The position numbers were made by a program, and so were the translations under genes. From Halobacteria archaeon AArc-dxtr1 (GTDB lineage: Archaea; Halobacteriota; Halobacteria; Halobacteriales; Natrialbaceae): 64,000 nt of DNA. Location of the stretch: NCBI GenBank assembly GCA_025517425.1, contig JAOPJY010000001.1, positions 1,226,217 through 1,290,216 on the forward strand. The letters run 5' to 3'. Positions 36,347-41,479 of this stretch are shown here, piece by piece. Each line of letters opens with the position of its first letter. Positions within the stretch are counted from its first letter, which is position 1. Under the pieces are notes generated by a model. The model saw only the letters and a list, made by a program, of their open reading frames with translations, did no database searches and was not told where the DNA came from.

Positions 36347-37210
36347 TTACTCGGCGTACAGCGCCTCGATCTCGGCGATCCGATCCGGGTTCCCGAAGTA
36401 CGTCGGAATGCGCTGGTGTAGGGTGTCGGGATCGGCATCGAGAATCGAACCGTGTCCGGTCGACGAGCGCCCACCCGCCGTTTCGACGATGTGGGCGATC
36501 GGGTTCGATTCGTACTGGAGCCGCAGGACGCCGTCGGGACCGCCCGATTGTGGGGGGTACGCGAGGAGACCACCGCGGTCGAGCAGGTGGGCAACGTCGC
36601 CCACCATCGCCCCCGTGTACCGGAGCTTGTGCGTGCGCCGAAGCTCTCGCCAGTGATCGCGCAGTTCCGGTGGCCACCCCGCAGTCGAGCGGGCAGCACC
36701 ACAGATTTCCGACGTCTCGGGGATCGAGACGGGATCTGCGGAGACGACGGCACCGTCGTCGATGACGTAGCGCACGCAGCGATCGTCGGTGGCGACAGTC
36801 ATCGTCGTCGTGGGGCCATAGAGCACGAACGTGCTCGCAACGAGGTCCCGGCCTCGGGCAGGAACGGAATCATCGTAGACGCCAACGACGGTGCCGGTGA
36901 CGGTGTTCGGCCGGAGGTTCGAGGAGCCATCGACCGGATCGACGGCGACGGTGTAGCCCTCTCCGACGTCGAGGAGATCACTGCGCTCCTCGCTGGCGTA
37001 GGTTCCGACGGCGTCGACTGCGGTGAGTTGATCCTGCAGACGGCGGTCGACGCGGCGGTCGACGGCGAGTCGCTCGTCGCCGCTTTCGTTCTCGCCAGCG
37101 GTCTCGACGGTCGACCGTCCGGCGACGTCACAAAGCGTCCGATTGATCGTCGGCGTCACCTCGGCGAGAGCCTCGAGTATCGAGGCGACGTCTGCGTCGG
37201 CTTCGATCAT
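36347..37210 (-). CDS. Class 1 fructose-1,6-bisphosphatase
   Basis: A 287-residue gluconeogenic phosphatase that removes the 1-phosphate of fructose-1,6-bisphosphate. It shows the metal/phosphate signature VDPVDGSSNLRPN at about 90-102 and the LRYTGAMVGDVAHLLDRGG block. The ATG at 37210 is the most likely start (MIEADADVASILEALAEVTPTINRTL). Its place next to PTS genes suggests sugar-phosphate balance in the same regulon as fructose uptake. Confidence 0.88.
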   Translation of the reverse strand: MIEADADVASILEALAEVTPTINRTLCDVAGRSTVETAGENESGDERLAVDRRVDRRLQDQLTAVDAVGTYASEERSDLLDVGEGYTVAVDPVDGSSNLRPNTVTGTVVGVYDDSVPARGRDLVASTFVLYGPTTTMTVATDDRCVRYVIDDGAVVSADPVSIPETSEICGAARSTAGWPPELRDHWRELRRTHKLRYTGAMVGDVAHLLDRGGLLAYPPQSGGPDGVLRLQYESNPIAHIVETAGGRSSTGHGSILDADPDTLHQRIPTYFGNPDRIAEIEALYAE

Positions 37211-37307
37211 CGCACCACCCGAACCGCTGGTGCCGAGGCCGAACTCAAGCGGCGACGAAGGTGGGTAGAGCCCCAAGTACGGAGCCAGCGTTCGGTTTCG
37301 AGCCCCA

Positions 37308-37524
37308 TCAGGGATCCTCCGCGACGATCTCGACGTTCGCGGCCTCGAACGGTTCCCGCTGTGCGTCGGAGAGGGCGTCGTCGGTGATAAAACAGGTCGA
37401 GGTCGGAGTGATCGGCAAATTGGACGAAGCTCTGCTTGCCGAGTTTCGTCGTATCGGCGACAGAGCACTCGCCGCGCTCGCTGACGAGTTCGACGATTTC
37501 GCGCCTGCGGACTGCCGGTAACAT
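37308..37524 (-). pseudogene. glpR: GlpR/DeoR-family repressor, deleted and frameshifted
   Basis: The first 24 residues (MLPAVRRREIVELVSERGECSVAD) match the N-terminus of haloarchaeal GlpR. The reading frame then jumps to its C-terminal domain (DTTKLGKQSFVQFADHSDLD), so about two thirds of the protein, including the rest of the helix-turn-helix, is missing. A further one-base shift in a T-run near 37395-37398 is needed to continue into FITDDALSDAQREPF, which ends at the stop 37308-37310. GlpR normally represses fructose and glycerol genes; this copy cannot. Confidence 0.82.
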
Positions 37525-37579
37525 CCCTAGTCGGTCGACGCTACGCGAGCCGATCCCAAAGCGTTCCCGCTTTCACTCG

Positions 37580-38068
37580 TTACGAGAGCCTCCGCTTGAC
37601 CCGAGCGAGGAGGCTCTTCTCGCGGCGTCGTTCGAGCGCCTCCTGGTCGATAGTTCGCGTCCCGTCGGCAGGAGACGACGAGGCGGTTTGGGCCTCGGCA
37701 TCGTCCGCCGCCGAGGCGACGGTTTCGTCGTTTGCAGACGCCTGCGGAGCGTCGACGGGGTCGCCGCCGGCGGCGTCGATGGCCGCCGCGATCAGGGAGT
37801 CGGCATCGTTGACGGCATCTTTGACCGTTCCCTTCACGACTGGAAGGGCTTCGAAGCGGTCCATGGGGACGGCGGTGTCGGCCGCGACGATCGTGGCCTC
37901 GGCCGCCTCGATGTCGCCGTCGGGGAGTTCGTTCTCGGCACCCATCGCCCCCTGAACCTCGACGGTGATCTCGTGGCCGCGCGCTGTGGGGGTTGTCTCT
38001 AACTTCTCGGCGGCCATCTGGCTGTGTGCGATTCCGGTCGGACAGGCTGTGACTGCAACGAATTTCAG
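37580..38068 (-). CDS. ptfB: PTS fructose-type IIB component
   Basis: A 162-residue protein. The IIB-fru domain (about 1-105) has the phosphocysteine loop FVAVTACPTGIAHS with C9 and MAAEKLE after it. A disordered Ala/Asp stretch follows, then a basic tail. No ATG, GTG or TTG fits: the reading starts best at a CTG (38068), which overlaps the enzyme I stop as CTGA. It normally accepts phosphate from IIA and passes it to sugar on IIC, but the IIC gene here is broken. Confidence 0.88.
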   Translation of the reverse strand: MKFVAVTACPTGIAHSQMAAEKLETTPTARGHEITVEVQGAMGAENELPDGDIEAAEATIVAADTAVPMDRFEALPVVKGTVKDAVNDADSLIAAAIDAAGGDPVDAPQASANDETVASAADDAEAQTASSSPADGTRTIDQEALERRREKSLLARVKRRLS

Positions 38069-39780
38069 TGGTCTGGGAGGTGGTCGCGTACGTCTCGTTC
38101 GGTCGTCGCCGCGAGCGCGCGTTCGGCAAGTTCGCTCGCGTCGGCTCGGTGCTGGCGGGTGACGGCGGCTTTCACGTCGGGAACGGTGACCGGGCTCATG
38201 CTCAGTTCGTCGAGTTCGAGGCCGACGAGCAACGCCGTGAAGGACGGATCGCCGGCCATCTCGCCGCACATTCCGATCCAGGCGTCCTCGGCGTGGGCCG
38301 CCTCGACGTTCCGTCTGATCGCGCGCAACACGGCGGGCTGACAGGGATCACGAAGTCCCGCAACCTGCTCGTTTTCGCGGGCGGCGGCCATCACGTACTG
38401 GGTGAGGTCGTTCGTCCCGATACTCAGGAAATCGACCCGCGACGCCAGTTCGCGGGCGAGGAAGACCGCGGCCGGCGTCTCGACCATCACGCCGAGTTCG
38501 GGGACGGCGTGGTCGACCCCCTCGGCGTCGAGAGCCTCGGCAACGTCGTCGACGACCGAGAGCGCGGCGTCGAGCTCCTCGACGGTCGTCACCAGCGGGA
38601 ACATGACGGCGAGGGCACCCTCGTCGTGGGCTGCCGCCCGGAGCAGCGCCCGCAGCTGGGTCTCGAAGAGATCGGCGTCAGGCCCCAGAGATCGTCTGAT
38701 TCCGCGCTCGCCGAGGAACGGATTCTCCTCGTCGGGCAGGTCGAGGTAGGGAATGGGCTTGTCGCCCCCGACGTCGAGCGTTCGGACGACGACCCGGCCG
38801 TCGGGAAACGTCGAGAGGGCGTCGACGTAGGTTTCGTACTGCTCGTCCTCGCCGGGCGGAGCGTCTCGATCGAGAAACAGAAACTCGGTTCGATAGAGGC
38901 CGATTCCGTCGGCTCCTTGCTCACGAGCGCCGGCCAGTTCGGTGGGCCGGCCGACGTTGGCGGCGATCTCGATGGCGGTCCCGTCGGCGGTCATCACCGG
39001 GTCGGACCGAACGTCGACGGCGTCCTCCTCGGCCGCGGCGGCGCGGCGCTCTGGAGTCGGATCGACGACGACCTCGCCGGCCTCGCCGTCGACGACGACC
39101 GTCGCGCCGTCGGCCACGTCCGAAAGCGCCTCACCGACACCGACGACGGCGGGCAGGGAGAGCGAGCGCGCGAAGATTGCGGCGTGGGAGGTCCGCCCGC
39201 CGGTGACGGTGGCGAAGCCGGCGACTCGTTCCGGATCGAGCTGGACGGTGTCACTCGGCGTGAGGCGCTCGGCGAGCAGAACTGTTCCAGGCGGTAGCTC
39301 GGCGAGAGCAGCGCCCTCGTCGCCGGTCAGGGTACGGACGAGACGGTCGCGGACGTCCCGCAGGTCGTCGGCCCGCTCTGCCATCCGGCCATCCATCCCT
39401 TCGAACTGCTCGATCGGGGCGGCAAACGCCGTCCTGACGGCGCCTTCGGCCGCCGCTCCGTCCTCGATCGCGTCCGCGACGCCGTCTTCGATCTGTGGAT
39501 CGTCGAGGAACTGGATGTGGGCGTCGAAGACGCCGGCTTCCTCCTCGCCGATGCGCGCTGCGGTTCGCTCGCGTTCGTCGGCCAGGGCATCTCTGGCGCG
39601 GTCGCGAGCGTCGACGAATCGTCGCCACTCGGCGCCAGGGTCGATCGCGTCCGTCCGCGAATCCAGGGTAGCCTCCGCAACGGTATCGGCCGACTCTCCG
39701 TCGGACGGACGGTACCAGACGACGGTTCCGGCACCGCTTCGAGGTGTCACACCGGTTCCGGTAAGGGTTCGTTCGGACAT
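38065..39780 (-). CDS. ptsI: Phosphoenolpyruvate--protein phosphotransferase (enzyme I)
   Basis: A 571-residue enzyme I. The N-terminal phosphohistidine domain has GGRTSHAAIFARSL with H199. The C-terminal PEP-binding barrel has IGLYRTEFLFLDRD, RTLDVGGDKPIPY, SIGTNDLTQYVMAA and the active-site Cys in GMCGEMAGDP. It starts the PTS phosphate relay from PEP to HPr. It lies 80 bases after ptsH on the same strand and overlaps ptfB by four bases. The reading frame is intact and of normal length. Confidence 0.94.
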   Translation of the reverse strand: MSERTLTGTGVTPRSGAGTVVWYRPSDGESADTVAEATLDSRTDAIDPGAEWRRFVDARDRARDALADERERTAARIGEEEAGVFDAHIQFLDDPQIEDGVADAIEDGAAAEGAVRTAFAAPIEQFEGMDGRMAERADDLRDVRDRLVRTLTGDEGAALAELPPGTVLLAERLTPSDTVQLDPERVAGFATVTGGRTSHAAIFARSLSLPAVVGVGEALSDVADGATVVVDGEAGEVVVDPTPERRAAAAEEDAVDVRSDPVMTADGTAIEIAANVGRPTELAGAREQGADGIGLYRTEFLFLDRDAPPGEDEQYETYVDALSTFPDGRVVVRTLDVGGDKPIPYLDLPDEENPFLGERGIRRSLGPDADLFETQLRALLRAAAHDEGALAVMFPLVTTVEELDAALSVVDDVAEALDAEGVDHAVPELGVMVETPAAVFLARELASRVDFLSIGTNDLTQYVMAAARENEQVAGLRDPCQPAVLRAIRRNVEAAHAEDAWIGMCGEMAGDPSFTALLVGLELDELSMSPVTVPDVKAAVTRQHRADASELAERALAATTERDVRDHLPDH

Positions 39781-39860
39781 GGTGTTCAGGCGTGAGGCGT
39801 GATCATTCGTGTGTGAGGGGGAGTGGTTCGTGCGTAGGGCGGACGTTGTGCTTCGACGTC

Positions 39861-40148
39861 TCAGTCATCGTTCAGCTCTGCTTCAGGCGACGTGAGGAGG
39901 GCTTCGAGGGCGTCTAACGCGTCCTCAGCGCCGTCGCCCTCGGCGACGAGCAGGACGTCCTCGCCGTTCTCGACGTCGAGTCCAGTCACCGCGAGCATGC
40001 TCGCCGCAGAGTGTAAGTCCTCGTCGCCGGGGCGTCCGACTCGAACCTCGGCGTCGTACATGGCGGCAGTCTGAACGAATTCGGCCGCGGGCCGCGCGTG
40101 GAGGCCGGCTTCGGGGACGACCGTGACGACGCGCTCGTGGGCAGTCAT
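39861..40148 (-). CDS. ptsH: HPr phosphocarrier protein
   Basis: A 95-residue HPr. The active histidine is in PEAGLHARPAAEF at H17, and the SAASMLAVTGLDVENGEDVLL segment covers the regulatory-serine region of bacterial HPr. It carries phosphate from enzyme I to IIA. Its start overlaps the ptfA stop by four bases (ATGA at 40145-40148), so coupled translation is likely. Confidence 0.92.
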   Translation of the reverse strand: MTAHERVVTVVPEAGLHARPAAEFVQTAAMYDAEVRVGRPGDEDLHSAASMLAVTGLDVENGEDVLLVAEGDGAEDALDALEALLTSPEAELNDD

Positions 40149-40621
40149 GCGATCGCCTCCCGAAGGACGGACTGCACGGCGTCCGGCGACGACGCGTCCG
40201 ACAGCCCCTCGCGACCCTCGTCGTGCATCAGCGCCCGAGACAGCGAGCTGAGGATCGAGAGGTGATCCTCGGCGCCGGACTCGGGAACCAGGATCGTGAA
40301 CACGAGGCGGGCGGGCTTGTCGTCCATCGCTCCGAAGTCGATGCCGCCGTCGGCGCGGGCGAAAGCGAGCGACGGGCGGCTGACAGCGTCGGTTTTCGCG
40401 TGGGGAATACCGATCCCCATCCCGACGCCGGTGGTGGTCTGTTCCTCTCGCGCGAGCAACGCCTCGAGGGCCGCCTCCCGATCCTCGACGCGTCCGTTGT
40501 CGTCGATCAGAGAGGGCAGGTGCTCGATGCAGGCCTCCTTCTGGTCGGGGGCGCCTGACAGCGAGACGTGAGCGGTCGGCAGCAACTCGTCTGCGTCGTC
40601 TGCCTCGATTGCCGTAGTCAT
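40145..40621 (-). CDS. ptfA: PTS fructose-type IIA component
   Basis: A 158-residue IIA-fru/mtl domain. The phosphohistidine is H74 in GMGIGIPHAKTDAV. VFTILVPESGAEDHLSILSSLSRALM is the typical C-terminal half. It receives phosphate from HPr and passes it to IIB. It is the first intact gene of the - strand PTS run; upstream lies the broken IIC gene. Confidence 0.92.
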   Translation of the reverse strand: MTTAIEADDADELLPTAHVSLSGAPDQKEACIEHLPSLIDDNGRVEDREAALEALLAREEQTTTGVGMGIGIPHAKTDAVSRPSLAFARADGGIDFGAMDDKPARLVFTILVPESGAEDHLSILSSLSRALMHDEGREGLSDASSPDAVQSVLREAIA

Positions 40622-40733
40622 GGATTGGAGTTGGGTCGTGTGTTCGTCTGCCCCGGTGAGCCGGGGAGGCCAGTGGTTGGTGGTAGCATACCGAACATAG
40701 TGGAGATTTCGGTCGGCAAGTGGTCAGAGAGCG

Positions 40734-41352
40734 TTACTGACCCGATCCGCTGACGGGACCAGTTCCCGCGGCGTCGTCGACCGTAACCTCGACGTCCGAC
40801 TTGAGCGGCGTGATGACCGCGGCGGTTACGACCGCGCCAAGAGCGATACAGCCCAGGAACAGCAGCGGGTTATTCGCCAGCGGCACGACGAAGATACCTC
40901 CGTGGGGTGCGGGCATCGTCACGCCGAGTCATATCGCGGTGGCGGCGGTCACGCTGCCGGCCATGATGCTCGGAATAACCCGGAGCAGGTCGGCCGCGGC
41001 GTAGGGAATCGCCCTCAGTGATGAACGAGAAGCCGAGCGGAACGGCGGCCTTCGCGTTCTCGTCCATCTCGGGCAGATACTTGTGCGGAGCGGCGAAGTT
41101 CGACAGCGCGAGGCCCAGCGGCGGAACCATCCCGGCGATCATCACCGCGGCCATCGGCTCGGTAATGCCGTCGGCGATCAGCGCGACCCCGAAGACGTAG
41201 GCGACCTTGTTGACCGGGCCGCCCATGTCGAAGGCCATCATCGCGCCGATGATCGCACCGAGCAAGAGCGCGTGCGAGCCCTCCATGCCCGTCAACGCCG
41301 AAGTCAGCGCGCCGTCGAGCAGTGCGATTGGGACGCCGAGCATCCACCACTA
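40734..41352 (-). pseudogene. ptfC: PTS fructose IIC permease, 5'-truncated, frameshifted, with internal stop
   Basis: Two out-of-frame pieces of one IIC protein remain. Piece 1 (about 41343-41011) reads GVPIALLDGALTSALTGMEG, DMGGPVNKVAYVFGVALIA and FSFITEG. A change of two bases near 41010 moves the frame. Piece 2 has SIMAGSVTAAT, then an in-frame TGA at 40929-40931, then TMPAPHGGIFVVPLANNPLLFLGCIALG to 40734. The first half of the about 370-residue protein, with the first membrane helices, is absent; the break is near 41352. No functional permease can be made. Confidence 0.88.
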
Positions 41353-41479
41353 CCAACTAAACAGTACTGAGCATGATTGTTCCATATTTTTAATGGCGAG
41401 AAATATGTGGGGACGATCAGTAAATGCACGGCGCGCCGAATCTGCAAGGTTATACCCGGCGGGTGACAACCCGTGGGCA

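Follow-up and report, generated by a model that had tools for sequence, protein, structure and literature searches.

Enzyme I and HPr of a dismantled haloarchaeal fructose PTS operon as probable phosphate donors for dihydroxyacetone kinase

In the genome of Halobacteria archaeon AArc-dxtr1 (G000; 2.81 Mb in 5 contigs, 98.8% complete) we detected a degraded haloarchaeal fructose phosphotransferase (PTS) operon, located at positions 36347-41384 on the minus strand of the window (the whole 64,000-nucleotide stretch analysed, C1:1226217-1290216). At the level of sequence, this PTS has recently lost its capacity for fructose transport. The general PTS proteins enzyme I (EI) and HPr are intact, and we consider it likely (probability about 0.8) that they owe their retention to the dihydroxyacetone kinase DhaKLM, encoded elsewhere in the genome, to which they would donate phosphate. 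The fructose-specific components IIA and IIB are probably residual, left behind by the recent loss.

Remains of the fructose PTS operon

The complete operon, as found in congener G021, reads fba-glpR-pfkB-ptfC-ptfA-ptsH-ptsI-ptfB-fbp, and many further relatives carry the same gene set with varying positions of fba, fbp and glpR. The minus-strand order in AArc-dxtr1 is a ptfC remnant, ptfA, ptsH, ptsI, ptfB, a glpR fragment and a fructose-bisphosphatase-like gene; with the G021 layout as reference, the missing block is fba-glpR-pfkB-5'ptfC. The operon is thus without pfkB, the 1-phosphofructokinase gene. A homologue of fba (68%) is present elsewhere in the genome.

The first-pass annotation described four complete relay genes with their phosphorylation residues, and for three of them this is borne out by full-length PFAM matches with the active-site residues in place. 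These are ptfA (EIIA-Fru, 40145..40621, minus strand; PF00359, E=8.9e-32; His in GIPHAKT), ptsH (HPr, 39861..40148, minus strand; PF00381, aligned to solved HPr; His in GLHARPAA) and ptsI (EI, 38065..39780, minus strand; PF05524, PF00391 and PF02896; His in GGRTSHAAI and Cys in GMCGEM), so that EI, HPr and IIA of a fructose PTS are all present with phosphorylatable residues. Also intact is the fructose-bisphosphatase-like gene (36347..37210, minus strand; PF00316 and PF18913) that closed the ancestral operon. The genome contains no HPr gene other than ptsH and no EI gene other than ptsI; a second EI match, with 37% identity over part of its length in a 791-residue frame, was read as PEP synthase. 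Similarity of the AArc-dxtr1 HPr is higher to homologues from other genera (up to 70%) than to those of its congeners (53-57%), and replacement or gene conversion is possible.

The fourth relay gene, ptfB (EIIB-Fru, 37580..38068, minus strand; PF02302 and solved IIB relatives), has an intact body that includes the phosphorylation Cys9, but its start codon is CTG where all 14 relatives examined have ATG, and in this respect it cannot be called complete. The next in-frame ATG falls downstream of the phosphorylation Cys, and the sole upstream in-frame ATG, GTG or TTG is a GTG 67 codons earlier, within ptsI. With its ATG start gone, EIIB has probably begun to decay.

The IIC permease was described as truncated and frameshifted, which our comparison confirms and extends. 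What is left of ptfC (40732..41340, minus strand) starts at about codon 193 and matches PtfC of G021 by tblastn in two frames (77% over codons 193-302 and 73% over codons 303-383), with a frameshift near 41011-41014 and an in-frame TGA (40929-40931) in place of the Trp codon of relatives. Only this broken 3' half of ptfC is found in place of an intact membrane permease. The repressor gene glpR, reported as deleted, is indeed without a functional copy, but pieces of it persist between ptfB and fbp (37317..37533, minus strand; tblastn pieces and reading frames), where codons ~11-37 are joined to codons ~218-265 and then frameshifted. This fragment lies downstream of ptfB, whereas glpR lies upstream in congeners.

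No replacement for the broken genes was found elsewhere in the genome. Searches detected no GlpR or DeoRC (DeoR-type GlpR) gene, and none of the three other PfkB-family genes matches the 1-phosphofructokinase (FruK) of the operon significantly, so that no close relative of the kinase acting on fructose 1-phosphate was found. PTS_EIIC (PF02378) has no PFAM match elsewhere in the genome; the same model missed PtfC of three relatives in which tblastn found it, and an IIC of very divergent sequence is still conceivable elsewhere. The 98.8% complete genome yielded no second fructose PTS locus, which leaves the first-pass picture of a relay without its permease standing.

Directly upstream of the ptfC remnant is a 32-base element (41353..41384, minus strand), TGGAACAATCATGCTCAGTACTGTTTAGTTGG, that corresponds to the promoter of fba, the first operon gene, in relatives (for example AAACAAACACGTTCAGTACTACTTAGTTCC in L123). 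With a weight matrix built from the fba promoters of eight relatives, the site scores 16.3 and the next best among ~128,000 window positions scores -1.4, against a background in the window of mean -57 and SD 12.5. The upstream regions of fba, glpR and ptfC in relatives resemble each other around AAANRATCAYA, a candidate for the GlpR operator. An insertion sequence end had been the first suspicion for the motif at the deletion edge and was ruled out, as the motif is the fba promoter. The deletion joins this promoter straight to codon ~193 of ptfC, and the promoter match at its edge indicates that it extends from just past the fba promoter to mid-ptfC, ~3.5 kb in the G021 layout. It took away fba and pfkB together with the 5' half of ptfC, and the series ptfC'-ptfA-ptsH-ptsI-ptfB-fbp now follows the fba promoter. 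We infer that the retained promoter drives transcription of the remaining genes.

At 98.8% completeness the genome of AArc-dxtr1 has 2.8 Mb, far less than the 4.1-4.7 Mb of well-covered congeners, and long branches lead to its PTS proteins; genome reduction is possible. Two further fructose PTS loci appear to be decaying or misassembled, namely that of G072 (L139), in which a frameshift breaks ptsI, and that of a Haloarcula rara plasmid (L076), in which ptsI and ptfC are in pieces.

Dihydroxyacetone kinase as user of EI and HPr

A search for DhaM-like partners, proposed together with the first-pass annotation, led to a complete and intact set of DhaK, DhaL and DhaM (PF02733, PF02734 and PF03610) at C1:23370-25665, 1.2 Mb from the PTS operon. 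The DhaM protein is of the EIIA-Man type, matches solved DhaM chains and conserves the HS motif with its phosphorylatable His. No EI or HPr gene adjoins dhaKLM within a 3.5 kb stretch, and the EI and HPr needed by a PTS-dependent dihydroxyacetone kinase are available solely from the genes in the window. Since the PTS phosphorylates DhaM in the known PTS-dependent kinases (PMC3863723, PMC1544339) and the genome encodes one EI/HPr pair, the window genes are the sole donor candidates. EI and HPr would thus be retained as the sole route in the cell by which the kinase receives phosphate from PEP, with phosphate passing from PEP via EI, HPr, DhaM and DhaL(ADP) to DhaK and dihydroxyacetone phosphate; the chemistry of this route is that of known DhaKLM systems, and its coupling in AArc-dxtr1 is our proposal. 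EIIA would be a leftover with no known acceptor. In Haloferax volcanii, dihydroxyacetone is phosphorylated mainly by glycerol kinase (PMC3863723) and AArc-dxtr1 also encodes a member of the glycerol kinase (FGGY) family, so DhaKLM may be non-essential.

The distribution of these genes in the family is consistent with a shared use of EI and HPr. Among the 125 genomes surveyed, 39 encode a true (strong) EI. PtfC accompanies it in 32 of these, 29 identified by PFAM and three (G009, G017 and G093) by tblastn; the latter had been candidates for EI genomes without PtfC and were rejected as such because they encode full-length PtfC missed by the PFAM model. The seven genomes with EI and no PtfC (G000, G081, G086, G091, G092, G107 and G116), representing perhaps 4-5 lineages, all encode DhaM, compared with 12 of the 32 that have PtfC (Fisher p=0.003, uncorrected for relatedness). 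The only genomes with DhaM and no EI were G035 (55% complete), G090 (220 contigs) and, with a weak match, G113. EI and HPr adjoin dhaKLM in G081 and G107 (a dha-linked set) and are those of the fructose operon in G000, G086, G091 and G092; the contig of G116 is too short to show which of the two applies. In congener G018 the dhaKLM-adjacent EI is broken by a frameshift and a TAG (L119; G018:C3:354547-356183) and the EI of the fructose operon is intact, which again suggests sharing of EI.

A parallel loss is found in three Natronococcus-type genomes (G086, G091 and G092; L122/L126/L132), where an independent deletion left promoter-fba'-ptsH-ptsI; Natronococcus sp. A-GB1 (L051) has the same arrangement. 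At these loci the promoter core GATACTGTTTAG is followed by an fba fossil, comprising the first ~43 codons, and then by ptsH and ptsI. We did not find ptfA, ptfB or ptfC in the three genomes, and DhaKLM is encoded elsewhere in each of them. That the three share the fba fossil is most simply explained by divergence after the loss. Since then the fossil has become 13-21% different among them, with indels, and dN/dS is ~0.10-0.22 for ptsI and ~0.05-0.24 for ptsH (NG86, YN00). These low values after a shared loss indicate that EI and HPr are maintained without a permease. A counter-example comes from congener G020 (83% complete), in which DhaM is undetected, the deletion reaches the last ~10 codons of ptsI, and ptsH is gone; at this locus (L147; G020:C5, 7180-8650), beside a helicase-like gene, ptfB is kept and fbp is frameshifted.

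Selection on the remaining genes and alternative readings

We compared the AArc-dxtr1 branch with the background under a two-omega codon model on a fixed tree; synonymous divergence is near saturation and the estimates are rough bounds. Omega on the branch was 0.05 for PtfA (background 0.09), 0.05 for HPr (0.08), 0.07 for PtsI (0.11), 0.06 for FBP (0.14), 0.27 for PtfB (0.17) and 0.10 for the ptfC remnant (0.07), for which values above ~0.2 are disfavoured by the profile. There was no significant relaxation on this branch in PtfA, PtfB, PtfC, HPr or PtsI (2dlnL 0.9-2.8), and FBP departed in the direction of more constraint (2dlnL 5.4). As the broken ptfC itself is without significant relaxation, the loss of the permease is recent; from the omega bound of ~0.2, a simple mixture roughly limits its neutral evolution to at most ~14% of the branch. 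The share of AArc-dxtr1 in protein branch length is largest for PtfB (0.21), followed by PtfC (0.18) and the others (0.13-0.16), which is suggestive only. The dN/dS of the four relay genes, which had been put forward as a check, therefore revealed no relaxation and is silent on whether IIA and IIB are used at present; we rejected it as a test of current use because, with no gene relaxed, it reflects how recent the loss is. PtfA, with its low omega, may still have a function.

The first-pass annotation left a choice between recent decay and a soluble relay kept for a regulatory or a sugar-kinase function, and the evidence divides this choice by protein. Recent decay is the better fit for PtfA and PtfB, given the unrelaxed ptfC remnant, the lost ptfB start and the Natronococcus-type genomes without IIA and IIB. 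For EI and HPr the sugar-kinase alternative is the better fit, through a dhaKLM without EI and HPr of its own, the phyletic pattern and the parallel losses. It is the lost ATG of ptfB, together with the absence of IIA and IIB in the parallel cases, that makes us regard both as probable leftovers. The reading that all four remaining genes are doomed leftovers without a current function is supported by a ptfC that stayed functional through most of the branch (omega 0.10 against 0.07) and by a ptfB that has lost its ATG; yet this would leave dhaKLM without a phosphate donor, the ~2 kb of ptsHI are free of lesions, and ptsHI of the Natronococcus-type genomes persist under purifying selection though IIA and IIB are gone. 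We therefore regard decay of the whole set as unlikely.

Still less probable is that soluble EIIA, perhaps with EIIB, acts as a phosphorylation-dependent regulatory relay without transport, in the manner of bacterial EIIA-type regulators. PtfA is of full length, has its His and is as constrained as in relatives, but this constraint spans the whole branch and mostly predates the loss of the permease, the EIIB start codon is lost, the parallel losers have neither IIA nor IIB, and no partner gene was identified. We found nothing in support of a regulatory function of the relay. A more specific version, in which EIIA and EIIB translated from the CTG start would have become, after permease loss, the PEP-sensing regulatory arm of a DhaKLM-feeding relay and thus part of a transport-free archaeal PTS, appears to us a long shot. 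We give next to no weight to an assembly artefact, that is, an intact fructose PTS obscured by sequencing or assembly errors in ptfC and at the deletion. The junction was read from the assembled sequence, but the lesions are separate and of several types (a promoter-edged deletion, a frameshift, a Trp to stop change, the internal deletion and frameshift of glpR, and the lost ptfB ATG), ptsHI between them is open, and no other IIC, GlpR or FruK-like gene was found in the nearly complete genome. Errors at the pseudogene breaks, a concern raised at the outset, are accordingly improbable.

Relation to known systems and meaning for haloarchaea

The haloarchaeal fructose PTS operon is known from the ptf/pts locus of Haloferax volcanii (PMC3102087; Pickl et al. 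2012 as cited in PMC8305020). The operon of AArc-dxtr1 consists of the same genes, its proteins match by synteny and identity, and the congeners' operon includes 1-phosphofructokinase, GlpR and aldolase; it differs in having lost permease, FruK and GlpR, by breakage or outright absence, and in having its remaining genes re-fused to the fba promoter. A DhaKLM that depends on the PTS is known from Haloquadratum walsbyi (PMC1544339) and Haloferax volcanii (PMC3863723). That of AArc-dxtr1 is of the same cytosolic, EI/HPr-fed kind, for which a membrane IIC is unnecessary, but its EI and HPr are not adjacent to dhaKLM and come from a dismantled fructose operon to which IIA and a damaged IIB are still attached. 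AArc-dxtr1 resembles the Natronococcus-type genomes in that the fructose block is gone, ptsH and ptsI lie behind the same promoter core and dhaKLM is elsewhere; their independent deletion also took ptfA. A PTS-fed dihydroxyacetone kinase without a permease has a precedent in Haloquadratum (PMC1544339); the novelty lies in the intermediate state, in the re-fused promoter and in the parallel loss.

With its promoter re-fused, IIC broken and IIB losing its start, AArc-dxtr1 is an intermediate on a path that ends in the Natronococcus-type state, without IIA and IIB. Annotations of EI, HPr, IIA and IIB should not be taken as evidence of fructose transport. Our results suggest that haloarchaea can use a single EI/HPr pair for fructose uptake as well as for dihydroxyacetone kinase, and that the general PTS proteins are thus able to outlive the sugar around which they were organised.
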